Positions 19,896 to 25,172 of a stretch of 46,273 bases of DNA are shown piece after piece. A program made the translations under genes and the position numbers. Below the pieces are notes generated by a model. It saw only the letters and a list, made by a program, of their open reading frames with translations, searched no databases and was not told where the DNA came from. How positions within the stretch are numbered: position 1 is the first letter of the stretch; every line of letters starts with the position of its first letter. Source of the DNA: Thermoflexales bacterium (GTDB taxonomy: Bacteria > Chloroflexota > Anaerolineae > J036 > Brachytrichaceae); NCBI GenBank assembly GCA_025056965.1, contig JANWVF010000125.1:1-46273 (forward strand), given 5' to 3'.

Positions 19896-21683
19896 TCATC
19901 GCCGGACGAGCGGCAGATACATCACCCGATCGGTCACCCTCAGCCACTGCGCGGTGACCGGTCCCCAGTTGCCCTCGGCATCTCGCCCGCGCACGAACAC
20001 TAAGTGCCGTCCCACGCTCAGCCCTGTGGTATCTAGCACACCAACCACCGTCTCGGTAGCGCTGCTGAAGGCGCCGTCCTGCGCTGCCAGCGCGATGGGC
20101 GTGCCGCCCGACCACGGCGGCGTGTTCACATATGCTTCGGCTGCAGCGATGGATTGCGCGGCCGGACGGCCAATGCTCTGCGGATGGCTGCCGAGCGCGT
20201 CGTCATCTATTGTCGCCGTGAGCGTGACTAATTGACCTGCCGCGACGATGCCGCTGCTCAACGTCACCGAGAACGTCGTCGGTCCATGAACGAGTGCGTA
20301 AGGCTGACGGGCGACTTTGGCGGCATAGAGCAGCGCCGGGCGGTTGAGCGGCCAGAAGAGGTTGTCTTGGCATGCATAGGATGGCGTGAAGTAGCCGCAC
20401 GCGCCACTGCTCGGGCCGATCTCGTAAGTGAAGCCGGGCACGCCGAGCGCGCCGTATGCCCAGTCATCGGTCGTGCCGCTGGCCGGATAGAGCAACTCTG
20501 ACGCCTGTCCGATCACGTAGCCGTTGAAGTGGCCCATGCGAAAAGCGAAGGCGCGCAAGCCGGCATCGTTGGGCGCGCGCTGCGCAGGCGAGCAAGCCCC
20601 CCAACACTGGCTCCATCCCCACGGCAAGAGGATCAGATCGCCGAAGCTGTGCAGGGTCAACATCACGCCGGTCGTGGTGATCGGCGCAGCATCCGTCAGC
20701 GCCGCGCCGCGCTGGTCGGCGAACAAATTGCGCATCAAATCCTCAAGGGCGGCCTGCTCCGGCTCGGAAGCCGCGCCGGCTCCTCGGTAGGTCTGTTCGC
20801 AGGGGTTCGTGCTGGCTCCGCTGACGCCCCACTGGAATGAGGCGTTGCGGTTGAGGTCCACACCCGGCTGCCAGAAGACGTAGTTCGGGTGATCCGGAAG
20901 CCAGCCGCACGTACCCGCCATGTCATTCGTGTTCTTGCGCTGCAGGTAGGGCGCGCTGCCGCCCTGCTCGACGAGATGTCGCCCGTCCGGGTTGGCGACC
21001 GGGATCACCCATATCTCATGGTGGTCAAGCAACCAAGTCGCTTCCGGGTCATGGCCGTAGCCGTCCACTAGGAAGTCCATCCAGCGCCGGGCGATCTCGC
21101 TAGTACTTAGCTCGCGCGCATGAACCGCAGCGATCAGCAGGAGGCGCGGCTTGTCGGTGTCGGGATCGAGTTGACAATCGTTTGGGCGGCGCTTGGTCAG
21201 GCAGATCGCTTTTAGGTCGTGGCCGTTCGGACGGCCGTTCACCTTGCGCCACGAATCGCCGTAGTCCACTACCAGCGCTAGTTCGGGCCGCGCCGCAGCA
21301 ATCGCATCCATGTGTGCCTCGTGGTCGGCCACGGTGCGGTAGCCCCCAAAGTAGCTCTGAGTGGCGAACGGTGAGCCTTGAGCGGTGAGAGGCACATGAA
21401 TGGATGCCTCAAGGCCCTTGGCGCGTATATCGGCTAGCGTCGCCGGGTCACCAATTAAGAACCGCGCATTCCCGTCGCGTGCCTCGAGCAGGTCATAGCC
21501 GCCCTCGGTGAGCAGAGCGACGTCGGCGGGCGAGCGGACGATGACGCGCAGGATGAAAAGATTGGGCACAGACCGGCGCGGTGTCAATGCGTGGCTTTCA
21601 CCGTCGTCTATGCCCGCAAGTGCCGGAGCGATGAAGAGGTTAGCCGCGACAAGCGCAAGCGTCAGCGCCATCTGCCGCCACAC
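19896..21683 (-). CDS. secreted M14 zinc carboxypeptidase with C-terminal YLPLV tail
   Basis: The product cleaves C-terminal residues from peptides outside the cell. From the GTG at 21683 it has 595 residues with a signal peptide (MWRQMALTLALVAANLFIAP, cut near ALA-G), a propeptide-like region, then the M14 domain: zinc ligands H188 and E191 in AAVHARELSTSE, NPDGRHL, the substrate-binding DLNRNASFQWG, the third ligand in MLTLHSFGD and the catalytic glutamate in GFTYEIGP. After about residue 460 comes an immunoglobulin-like domain (TFSVTLSSGIVAAGQLVTL) and the end VMYLPLVRR. The GTG start is favoured because TACAAT lies six bases upstream (21690-21695); an ATG 14 codons further up would also be in frame. 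It converges with the transporter operon. Confidence 0.88.
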   Translation of the reverse strand: MWRQMALTLALVAANLFIAPALAGIDDGESHALTPRRSVPNLFILRVIVRSPADVALLTEGGYDLLEARDGNARFLIGDPATLADIRAKGLEASIHVPLTAQGSPFATQSYFGGYRTVADHEAHMDAIAAARPELALVVDYGDSWRKVNGRPNGHDLKAICLTKRRPNDCQLDPDTDKPRLLLIAAVHARELSTSEIARRWMDFLVDGYGHDPEATWLLDHHEIWVIPVANPDGRHLVEQGGSAPYLQRKNTNDMAGTCGWLPDHPNYVFWQPGVDLNRNASFQWGVSGASTNPCEQTYRGAGAASEPEQAALEDLMRNLFADQRGAALTDAAPITTTGVMLTLHSFGDLILLPWGWSQCWGACSPAQRAPNDAGLRAFAFRMGHFNGYVIGQASELLYPASGTTDDWAYGALGVPGFTYEIGPSSGACGYFTPSYACQDNLFWPLNRPALLYAAKVARQPYALVHGPTTFSVTLSSGIVAAGQLVTLTATIDDDALGSHPQSIGRPAAQSIAAAEAYVNTPPWSGGTPIALAAQDGAFSSATETVVGVLDTTGLSVGRHLVFVRGRDAEGNWGPVTAQWLRVTDRVMYLPLVRR

Positions 21684-21689
21684 GCAATC

Positions 21690-21695
21690 ATTGTA
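21690..21695 (-). promoter_or_regulatory. putative -10 box, leaderless-type, for the M14 gene
   Basis: TACAAT on the minus strand, six bases before the GTG at 21683, which is directly upstream of the signal peptide. There is no Shine-Dalgarno sequence. The match in spacing to the boxes at 6429 and 26440 decides the start choice here. Confidence 0.4.
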
Positions 21696-21732
21696 TGCGA
21701 CGTGCTGACTGCTCCGGCGCAAGCTGCACTGT

Positions 21733-22230
21733 TCACAGTTCCAGACGTCTGCCTACAAATTCAAGTCCTCGATCTTTCAATGCGCGTATATGGGGATCGC
21801 CTTGAGAGAAGTTGCTCAAACCCGTGGCGATCCAGACAATACGCCGAGGCGTGTAGTTCATAGGCTGCGCTTTCGTCCGCAACCACTCCATCAACCATTC
21901 CAGCTTTCCACGAACTTCTTTCAAGTGGTCGCTTTTTGCTGCAGGATGGACTTCGACCCAGATGATCTGCTCCGCGCCGGCTGTGTCACTATAACCGACC
22001 GCATAGTCCCAGCGCGGCTCATTTGGCAGCGCTGCTTTCAGCGCGTCATCAATACACACGCTGCCCCTGAGTTGCCTTGAGTTTGCGCATGCGATCCTAT
22101 GTTTGTCCGGCTCGCGGAGCGCTTTCAATCCTTTCTGATATGCCGAGGCGATGCTCCTTGTTGCCTGCACGGCTTGGTAGAAGCGAGACTTGGACTTTCC
22201 CGAGGCCGATCTACGAGAGGACTTTGCCAT
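21733..22230 (-). CDS. small partner protein of the AAA ATPase, nuclease-like EVH motif
   Basis: A 165-residue basic protein that I cannot assign to a named family. After a lysine/arginine/serine-rich start it has a conserved-looking block: GSVCIDDAL, PRWDYAVGYSD, then IIWVEVHPA, then a helix KLEWLMEWL, and a final strand RRIVWIATG. An acidic residue at the end of one strand, followed by E-x-H/K on the next, resembles the core of PD-(D/E)xK nucleases, with His where Lys is usual; this is inference from pattern only. Its ATG lies 20 bases inside the end of the ATPase gene in another frame, so the two are translationally coupled. The M14 gene follows 49 bases later with its own probable promoter. 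Confidence 0.7.
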   Translation of the reverse strand: MAKSSRRSASGKSKSRFYQAVQATRSIASAYQKGLKALREPDKHRIACANSRQLRGSVCIDDALKAALPNEPRWDYAVGYSDTAGAEQIIWVEVHPAAKSDHLKEVRGKLEWLMEWLRTKAQPMNYTPRRIVWIATGLSNFSQGDPHIRALKDRGLEFVGRRLEL

Positions 22231-23389
22231 TATTTGCTACCGCCTGAGCGATGAGGTTGCCCACATGGCCGCTGAACTCGGTGAGTCCCCCCCAACCTGA
22301 TTCAGCAGGATTCTCTGAGGCGGGATCAAGTTTGGATATGTCACGCACTTCGCCGGTTTCTCTCTGAAAGTAATAGACCTTTAGCTCTTTCGAGGTATCC
22401 AGCGCTGCCTCGGCCAATCTCCTTGCCTCAGCCGTTGATGGCAAGTAGAAAAGAGATCGCACGAACTTCTCACCAGCTTGGCTTTCGCGAAATCGGTGCA
22501 GCGCCCAGATCACGTCGAGCACGTGTGGTGAATGCGTCGAAAGATATACGCGATACCCGCGCTGCAACAAGTCGAGCACCAGCAACATCGCCGCCGAGAT
22601 AGCTTGCGGATGCAACCCCATCTCGATTTCCTCGATCACGGCCAGCTCTAACAGCTCACGGCGCGGCGTCTTAGAGGGAGGGAGCAACTGGTAAGCGCCG
22701 AGCAACAACGGCACGAATTCGCGCTGGCCGGCCGACCACACGGTAAAAGGGAGAGAGTCACCTTCCTCCCCTTGCAACACCAGCCTTCGCTGGCCCATCT
22801 GGGCTTCCGTTCGCAAGCTAAAGTTGCCAAAGATCGCCTTTAGCAATGCCTCACGAATGACTTTCTTCAAGCGCTTCTTTTGGGGAAAGACAACTCCGCC
22901 ATCCCTCAGGAGCTCCTGTTCGGCCAGCCGGCGCACCTTCTCGCCGAAGTCACGCACGACGAATGGGTCGCCCGCACGATAGTCATAAAAGCCCCTGAAC
23001 CAGCCGCTCTGCGGATTAATGGCCAGCACGCGCTGGGCAGGGATGTAGAACACGCGCTCGGTCAGGTTGCGCTTGCCGCGACGGGCGAGGGACTGCAAAT
23101 CAACCCGATCACCGTCGCTCTCGATCGTCGTGTCCTGTCTCCAGATCCGCTGCATGCCCTCACCGAACACCGCTTTGACGAACGTGGAGGGATCACCGCT
23201 TTCCCACTCGGCGCCATACTGCTTCAGCGTGTTGTGGATCGCGCCAGTATCGGCCAGCAGCTTCACAAGCTGCAACGTCAGGCTTTTGCCGGTGGCCTGT
23301 GGGCCGACGAAAACGGTCAACGCGCCAAAGGAGATGTCAGCAGACTTGATAGGCCCGAAGTTTCGCAACCGGAGGCAGCCGGGAATCAC
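22211..23389 (-). CDS. AAA/SMC-like ATPase of the OLD/AbiL type (AAA_21-like)
   Basis: A 392-residue ATPase related to overcoming-lysogenization-defect and AbiL-like proteins. Motifs: Walker A VFVGPQATGKS (residues 27-36), a long insertion (about 60-210) with RVFYIPAQRVLA, signature-like VWSAGQREFVPLLL (about 218), Walker B LAVIEEIEMGLHPQ (about 250) and the D/H-loop YLSTHSPHVLD (about 284). There is no TOPRIM nuclease domain at the C-terminus, so a nuclease would have to come from a partner, perhaps the overlapping 165-residue protein. The GTG start at 23389 lies six bases after the glnS stop with AGGGG upstream, so it is expressed with glnS. Such ATPases are frequent in phage-defence systems, but a housekeeping role cannot be excluded. 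Confidence 0.82.
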   Translation of the reverse strand: MIPGCLRLRNFGPIKSADISFGALTVFVGPQATGKSLTLQLVKLLADTGAIHNTLKQYGAEWESGDPSTFVKAVFGEGMQRIWRQDTTIESDGDRVDLQSLARRGKRNLTERVFYIPAQRVLAINPQSGWFRGFYDYRAGDPFVVRDFGEKVRRLAEQELLRDGGVVFPQKKRLKKVIREALLKAIFGNFSLRTEAQMGQRRLVLQGEEGDSLPFTVWSAGQREFVPLLLGAYQLLPPSKTPRRELLELAVIEEIEMGLHPQAISAAMLLVLDLLQRGYRVYLSTHSPHVLDVIWALHRFRESQAGEKFVRSLFYLPSTAEARRLAEAALDTSKELKVYYFQRETGEVRDISKLDPASENPAESGWGGLTEFSGHVGNLIAQAVANNGKVLS

Positions 23390-23395
23390 GTGCTC

Positions 23396-25078
23396 TCACC
23401 CCTGCGCAGACGCCTTCGCCCACCCATCCTTCAAGCCGACAGCGCGGTTGAAGACCAGTTGTTCCGGCGTCGTGTCGGGGTCAACGACGAAGTAGCCCAG
23501 CCGCTCGAATTGGTAGTGCTTGCCGACGGGCGAACCGGCCACGCTCGGCTCGGCGAAGCCTTGCACTACCTCTAATGACTTCGGGTTGAGATAGTCCAGG
23601 AAGCTCTCGCCCTCAGCCACGTTGTCCGGGTCGGGGCGGGTGAACAGATGGTCGTAGAGCCGCGCTTCGATCGGCAAGGCGTGTGCTGCGCTGACCCAGT
23701 GGATGGTGGCCTTGACCTTGCGCCCGTCCGGCGCGCTGCCGCCGCGCGTCGCAGGATCATAGGTACAGCGCAGCTCAACCACGTTGCCGGCAGCGTCTTT
23801 GACCACTCCTACGCACTTGATGAAGTAGCCGTAGCGCAGGCGCACTTCGCGGCCGGGCGCAAGCCGATAGAACTTGGGCGGCGGATTCTCCATGAAGTCG
23901 TCTTGCTCGATGTACAGCACGCGACCGAAGGGCACGTGTCGCACACCGGCCGCAGGGTCTTCAGGGTTGTTAATGGCTTCCAGGAGCTCGGTCTGTTCGG
24001 CGGGGTAGTTCTCGATCACCACGCGCAGTGGGCGCAACACCGCCATCACACGCGGCGCACTTTTGTTCAGCTCGTCGCGCAAGCTGTGCTCGAGCATGGC
24101 GATGTCCACCACGCTGTCGGCTTTGGCCACACCGATGCGGGCGCAAAAATCGCGGATGGCCGAGGGCGTGTAGCCGCGCCGGCGCAGGCCACGCAGGGTG
24201 GGCATGCGCGGGTCGTCCCAGCCGCGCACGTGGCCTTCCTTCACCAGCTGCAGCAGCTTGCGCTTGCTCAACACGGTGTAGCTCAGGTTCAACCGAGCGA
24301 ACTCGATCTGCCGCGGCGCGAAGATCTCCAGCTCGCGCAGGAACCACTCATAGAGCGGGCGATGGTCCTCATATTCCAACGAGCAGAGCGAATGGGTGAT
24401 GCCCTCGATGCTATCGCTTTGGCCATGCGCGAAGTCATACGTCGGGTAGATGCACCACTTGGTGCCCGTGCGGTGATGGCTGGCGTAAATGATGCGATAC
24501 ATCACCGGATCGCGCATGTTGATGTTGCCGGACGCCATATCAATCTTGGCGCGCAGCGTGCGGCTGCCCTCGGGAAATTCACCGGCGCGCATGCGGGCGA
24601 ACAGGTCGAGGTTTTCCTCCACGCTGCGGTTGCGCCAGGGGCTCTCGCGCCCGGGCTGGGTGAGCGTGCCGCGATATTCGCGAATCTCCTCCGGCGAGAG
24701 GTCGCACACATACGCCTTGCCCTTCTTGATCAGCTTAACGGCATACTCGTAGAGTTGCTCGAAGTAGTCACTGGCAAAGCGCAGCTCATGCCAGCGATAA
24801 CCCAGCCAGCGCACGTCCTCGATGATCGCGTCCACGTACTCCTGCTCTTCTTTGGTGGGGTTGGTATCGTCAAAGCGCAGGTTGCACGTGCCGCCGAACT
24901 CGCGGGCGATCTCGAAGTCCACGGCCATCGCCTTGGCATGGCCGATGTGCAGATAGCCGTTGGGCTCCGGCGGGAAGCGCGTGCGGACGTAGGTGAAACG
25001 CCCGGAGGCAAGATCCTCGCGCACGGCGGTGCGGATAAAGTCAGACGTCGTTTTGGCGATAGTCGGCTCAACGCTCAT
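23396..25078 (-). CDS. glnS: glutaminyl-tRNA synthetase
   Basis: Attaches glutamine to tRNA-Gln in the cytosol. The 560-residue product has the class I HIGH motif in [17 protein letters not shown] (about residues 32-48), the KMSKS-equivalent [11 protein letters not shown], the GlnRS/GluRS-specific [15 protein letters not shown] block, and a C-terminal anticodon-binding beta-barrel region ending in [19 protein letters not shown]. Length matches bacterial GlnRS (about 550). I place the start at the ATG at 25078; the frame continues to 25126 but the true N-terminus is [22 protein letters not shown] lies 12 bases upstream. It heads an apparent operon with the ATPase pair. Having GlnRS means this organism need not rely on the amidotransferase route for tRNA-Gln. 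Confidence 0.96.
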
Positions 25079-25090
25079 ACGTGAAGAGAA

Positions 25091-25096
25091 AGTATA
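25091..25096 (-). promoter_or_regulatory. putative -10 box of glnS
   Basis: TATACT on the minus strand, 12 bases before the ATG at 25078, so the leader would be about five bases. No Shine-Dalgarno sequence is present. Confidence 0.4.
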
Positions 25097-25172
25097 GCCC
25101 GCGTGCCGGCGCATCCGTATGGCCACCGCTTCGGCGCGCAGTTAGGCGAGCGGAGGGCTGGGTCGTGCTCGC

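Follow-up and report, generated by a model that had tools for sequence, protein, structure and literature searches.

The experimentally studied design closest to the gene pair described here is WonAB, the likeness noted here being one of design. WonAB combines an OLD-ABC ATPase with a variant PD-(D/E)xK nuclease and was proven to stop phages in Vibrio (PMC12137116). Neither of its genes and neither of its activities can be dispensed with, WonB is toxic only together with WonA, and the outcome is abortive infection, in which translation stops while the genomic DNA stays intact (PMC12137116). Systems of this kind have been grouped under the heading "OLD-ABC ATPase + Novel REase" (PMC12137116; Krishnan et al. 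2020). Three other systems share parts of this design: Septu, which pairs the ATPase PtuA with the HNH nuclease PtuB and cuts tRNA-Tyr (PMC13096335); Gabija, in which the OLD-type ATPase GajA carries a TOPRIM domain and is followed by the UvrD-like helicase GajB; and PARIS, in which the ABC ATPase AriA and the TOPRIM-type nuclease AriB are separate genes. Beside these stand the catalogued PDC candidates. PMC12988326 traces the PDC systems to screening by guilt-by-embedding, for which it cites a preprint (Payne et al. 2024), and describes most of them as still lacking an experimental test.

The pair studied here lies in a contig of 46,273 nucleotides from a Thermoflexales bacterium, referred to in full as the window. 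Gene A (22211..23389, minus strand) encodes an ATPase of 392 residues and starts with GTG 6 nt past the stop codon of glnS (23396..25126, minus strand), the housekeeping gene directly upstream. Gene B (21733..22230, minus strand) encodes a protein of 165 residues with a pI of 10.05 and starts with ATG inside gene A, so that the two reading frames overlap by 20 nt (22211..22230). The position and the basic character of the small protein were thus correctly given in the earlier note on this DNA. Downstream follows a gene for an M14 zinc carboxypeptidase (19896..21722, minus strand; Pfam PF00246, 3.6e-45), which like glnS is placed outside the module. In a comparison with the copy of a genus-mate (G001) A has a dN/dS of 0.07 and B one of 0.24, which indicates that both genes are under purifying selection; together with the deep homologues this rules out chance open reading frames. 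The overlap suggests that translation of the two genes is coupled, and since A starts so close behind glnS the two genes are probably transcribed together with it.

Both genes match, nearly end to end, the two models of the phage-defence candidate PDC-M56 in PADLOC-DB 2.0.0. The match of A to PDC-M56A has E=4e-138 (residues 6-386, model positions 4-380 of 382) and that of B to PDC-M56B has E=2.3e-40 (residues 13-163, model positions 4-148 of 151). After PDC-M56A the best-scoring PADLOC model for A is AriA of PARIS (2e-16). PDC-M56B is the sole match of B, and the same model is also matched by all 22 aligned homologues of B. The two genes stand next to each other on one strand and in the same order as in the catalogued system, from which no difference was seen. 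Judged by these model matches the pair is a member of PDC-M56. The earlier note had read the locus as an undescribed module in which an OLD-type ATPase is coupled to a small variant nuclease. The coupling, the ATPase, the predicted nuclease and a likely role in defence stand, but the novelty does not, because the pairing is already catalogued and its architecture has been published, with WonAB as a tested example (PMC12137116). Our literature search found no paper naming PDC-M56 and no experiment or published function for it.

The two genes are tightly linked. Homologues of B were collected from Pseudomonadota, Bacteroidota, Cyanobacteriota, a plasmid of the Verrucomicrobiota and the phylum of the window itself, and in 24 of the 25 loci A lies directly upstream of B on the same strand, in most cases with a short overlap or near-contact. 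B homologues that mostly occur on their own, which would have spoken against a module, were thus not what we found. In the exception (L066, 9713-10066) B stands alone, is truncated at its N-terminus and lies in DNA that is degraded and rich in repeats. In another locus (L067:776-2403) an intact A is next to a B whose reading frame is broken by a frameshift or by a sequencing error. Of 199 related genomes, the A model picked out 7 and the B model these same 7, and the distance matrices of the two proteins are correlated (Mantel r 0.79, with none of 5000 permutations as high), a value for which shared descent of the loci suffices and which therefore shows co-inheritance and not contact.

Protein A is an OLD/Septu-type ABC ATPase without a TOPRIM match. 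In Pfam it matches only the ATPase families AAA_21, AAA_15 and AAA_23 (AAA_21 5.6e-14), among which no TOPRIM domain is found, and in NCBIfam its matches stay below threshold. The motifs that had been proposed from the sequence are present, namely a Walker A motif (G29xQxxGKS), a signature-like motif (W218SAGQ222) and an H-loop (STH286), and there is a Walker B stretch (E253/E254/E256). Their key residues are invariant among 24 homologues (G29, Q31, G34, K35 and S36; W218, S219, G221 and Q222; E253, E254 and E256; S284, T285 and H286), as are W366, G367 and G368 near the C-terminus. The AlphaFold2 model (pLDDT 90.8) has PtuA of Septu and retrons and Rad50 as its best Foldseek matches, and the group of OLD, PtuA, GajA and Rad50 is indicated by its sequence profile as well as by its fold.

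The second gene separates the pair from the described systems. PtuA, of Septu and type I-A retrons, is the nearest fold in the PDB to A, and in both cases the ATPase is accompanied by a small separate nuclease. B, however, matches no HNH or PtuB model in Pfam or PADLOC and its predicted fold differs from that of PtuB, which excludes membership of Septu. Gabija has the OLD-type ATPase in common with the pair, but A consists of ATPase domains only, B is not a helicase and the window holds no helicase; membership of Gabija was rejected as well. The earlier note had set the pair apart from both of these systems on the strength of its second gene, as we do. With PARIS the pair shares the separate genes for ATPase and nuclease, whereas AriB is of the TOPRIM type and B, which has its single PADLOC match in PDC-M56B, is predicted to have a fold of the PD-(D/E)xK type, so that PARIS was excluded too.

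B itself has no match in Pfam, a Pfam search over all its homologues gave no convincing family, and a sequence-profile search against the PDB returned chance matches only (e.g. C-reactive protein). The AlphaFold2 model, built with 22 sequences, has a pLDDT of 92.4 and a pTM of 0.86. Its core runs strand-helix-strand-strand-helix-strand (strands at residues 54-59, 76-81, 87-95 and 129-135, helices at 60-65 and 100-119), and the predicted arrangement agrees with the core fold of the PD-(D/E)xK superfamily (a helix, a three-strand meander, a helix and a strand). The top Foldseek matches in the PDB are EndoMS (the best, at 7e-4), Card1, BamHI, EcoO109I and BspD6I. With VIA-align the Z-scores are 7.8/7.3 for Card1, 6.9 for Can2, 6.8 for XisH, 5.4 for the small subunit of BspD6I and 5.3 for EndoMS, all of them below the value of 8 under which, as the tool itself notes, a match may reflect merely a common arrangement. 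Among the best structural matches, members of the PD-(D/E)xK superfamily are in the majority. Since the scores are of moderate size and some Rab GTPases turn up further down the list, the nuclease assignment rests on fold and conservation combined.

The conservation is found where the predicted fold would place an active site. No other blocks of the family are as conserved as RWDY and VEVHPA, which the earlier note had singled out as a possible variant nuclease core. Among 23 sequences W74, D75, E93, H95, K109, L113 and W133 are invariant and S57, D61 and R73 nearly so. In the model D75 opens the second strand and E93-x-H95 ends the third, which are the places of the D and the (D/E)xK of the superfamily, and both acids are invariant in the 22-23 sequences compared. 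The spacing between the two acids is 13-19 in the B family, and 14 in EndoMS (D165, E179, K181; PMC7680126). The position of the motif lysine is occupied by a histidine in every aligned homologue, and thus E93-x-H95 has an invariant histidine where a lysine would be usual. In other families of the superfamily the lysine is documented to have moved to the following helix (PMC1913061), and K109, invariant and located in the next helix, could be such a migrated lysine; H95, for its part, might be unable to support catalysis. Card1, Can2 and EndoMS, which provide the closest solved folds, carry extra domains, whereas B is a lone core, and EndoMS has E-x-K where B has E-x-H. On the evidence of model and conservation the D...E-x-H pattern marks the region predicted to form the active site in a PD-(D/E)xK-like fold, and B is probably a nuclease of this fold with an E-x-H site; the predicted structure is nuclease-like and not clearly of another kind.

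Set against the published description (PMC12137116), the pair has the design of WonAB, i.e. a two-gene operon in which an OLD-type ABC ATPase comes first and is followed by a small (16-19 kDa) protein of a variant PD-(D/E)xK type, in our case by prediction. The Walker A lysine is found at nearly the same place (K34 in WonA, K35 in A) and the spacing from the Walker B glutamate to the H-loop histidine is nearly equal (33 and 32 residues). The differences are that WonA has about 47 residues more between Walker A and Walker B, and that WonB needs its lysine K71, whereas every PDC-M56B protein examined has a histidine at the E-x-K position.

We consider it likely that the pair, as a PDC-M56 module, is a two-gene, ATP-dependent system against phages or other mobile elements, with an ATPase as sensor and a nuclease as effector, and that it probably acts by abortive infection. 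Most likely A would dimerise on ATP, hold B and sense a signal related to infection. Metal would be bound in B by D75 and E93, with H95 and/or K109 standing in for the usual lysine. Once activated by A, B would cut nucleic acid and halt the cell, as suggested by the analogy with WonAB and Septu, and by the same analogy the target may be an RNA, perhaps tRNA or rRNA.

A second reading, somewhat improbable in our view although it has structural arguments on its side, is that A and B recognise foreign DNA (ends, unmodified DNA or replication forks) and that B cuts it directly, like a restriction enzyme, without killing the host. The DNA endonucleases EndoMS, BamHI, EcoO109I and BspD6I among the structural neighbours of B agree with it, as does the resemblance of A to Rad50 as well as to PtuA. 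So does the observation that in two loci from genomes of the Bacteroidota phylum (L063:7582-10097 and L064:2307-4824) a gene for a UvrD-like helicase of 686 residues follows 8-10 nt downstream of B, which suggests DNA processing. No cognate methylase, however, lies beside the pair in the window, and WonAB, the tested system of like design, leaves the chromosomal DNA undegraded and stops translation instead. The helicases of the two loci are GajB-like (1e-26 and about 1e-23), and to judge from the gene order these loci may represent a three-gene form with ATPase, nuclease and helicase. The more far-reaching proposal is that B is an active nuclease in which the lysine has been replaced by the invariant histidine (D...E-x-H plus the helix lysine), with a distinct chemistry or substrate such as tRNA, that it is switched on by an OLD-type ATPase and that in some Bacteroidota the helicase-linked pair is a split analogue of Gabija; we regard this as rather improbable.

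The small basic effector that overlaps its partner gene, the strict linkage of A and B, and the faster evolution of B (the dN/dS values given above) would also fit a toxin-antitoxin pair, in which A would do no more than hold a toxic nuclease, B, as its antitoxin, the pair being kept for the stability of the region and not for defence. We regard this as unlikely: a large, conserved ATPase would be an uncommon choice for a plain antitoxin, the two families are catalogued as defence candidates, and the ATPase of WonAB is required for toxicity and not for protection against it. Frequent loss and decay in genus-mates, described below, fits an addiction module poorly.

The distribution of the pair is patchy. 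It is intact in only two of nine genomes of the genus, in both cases after glnS, and it can therefore not be a set of universally conserved core genes beside glnS, an outcome that would have counted against the defence proposal. Three genus-mates without an intact pair (G002, G004 and G008) have decayed, short fragments of A 13-24 nt after glnS (L029:8063-8210, L030:6653-6820 and L031:5500-5658), and in a further one (G005) the site is cleanly empty, with the M14 gene directly after glnS. A recent insertion at glnS as the sole history was consequently revised: decayed copies of A at the same spot in three genomes suggest that the pair has long been present at the glnS site and was lost time and again, a pattern that suits an accessory defence gene. 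In three other phyla the pair was found in 4/398, 6/395 and 4/292 genomes, respectively. Among 400 genomes sampled evenly from the window's own phylum the only strong match came from the genome of the window, next to a weak one in G1434 (E 0.006).

In the tree of A, loci L005 and L006 (Pseudomonadota) and L067 (from the phylum that was sampled starting from a genome of the Bacteroidota) group within the class of the window, with modest support, which is in line with transfer. One copy of the pair is located on a mobilizable plasmid of 99.8 kb in Opitutaceae bacterium TAV5 (L038:6810-8492), where B is unannotated in the gene table given. No B was found in phage records or in IMG/VR with queries that reach close relatives only.

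In the window and in most of the loci the neighbours are ordinary genes and there is no defence island. One of the helicase-bearing loci (L063) adjoins a type III methyltransferase and HEC-07 genes, and the flanks of other loci have scattered matches to type IIG enzymes, PtuA and PDC-S01, for which no enrichment is claimed. In a class-mate (L035:5056-9731) the start of A falls at the stop codon of metH, so that, as with glnS in the window, the pair comes after a housekeeping gene in the direction of reading. In L060 and L033 the pair neighbours a chemoreceptor gene and a gene for an NADH dehydrogenase subunit, respectively. In Halochromatium glycolicum (L055:7342-8316) a YhgA-like (Transposase_31) protein is encoded immediately upstream of A.

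The position of A within 6 nt of glnS, and EndoMS and Rad50 among the structural matches, could also be taken as signs of a housekeeping or repair role, tied to glnS or exerted by a complex resembling MRN and EndoMS, without a function against phages. This is very improbable, since the pair is not intact in seven of the nine genus genomes, is rare and scattered over phyla, and has different neighbours elsewhere (metH, the chemoreceptor and the NADH dehydrogenase subunit).

As far as we checked, the new points are the assignment of B to a fold, the invariant E-x-H site in this protein, the occupied, decayed and empty states of the glnS site and the helicase-linked variant. With them the catalogued candidate PDC-M56 gains a predicted mechanism, in which an ATPase would act as sensor and a protein of the PD-(D/E)xK type, with an unusual, invariant E-x-H, as effector. 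It would thereby join a growing group in which OLD-ABC ATPases are combined with interchangeable nucleases, of the HNH type in Septu, the TOPRIM type in PARIS and the PD-(D/E)xK type in WonAB, and it may help in asking whether many effectors are driven by a sensor of one design.
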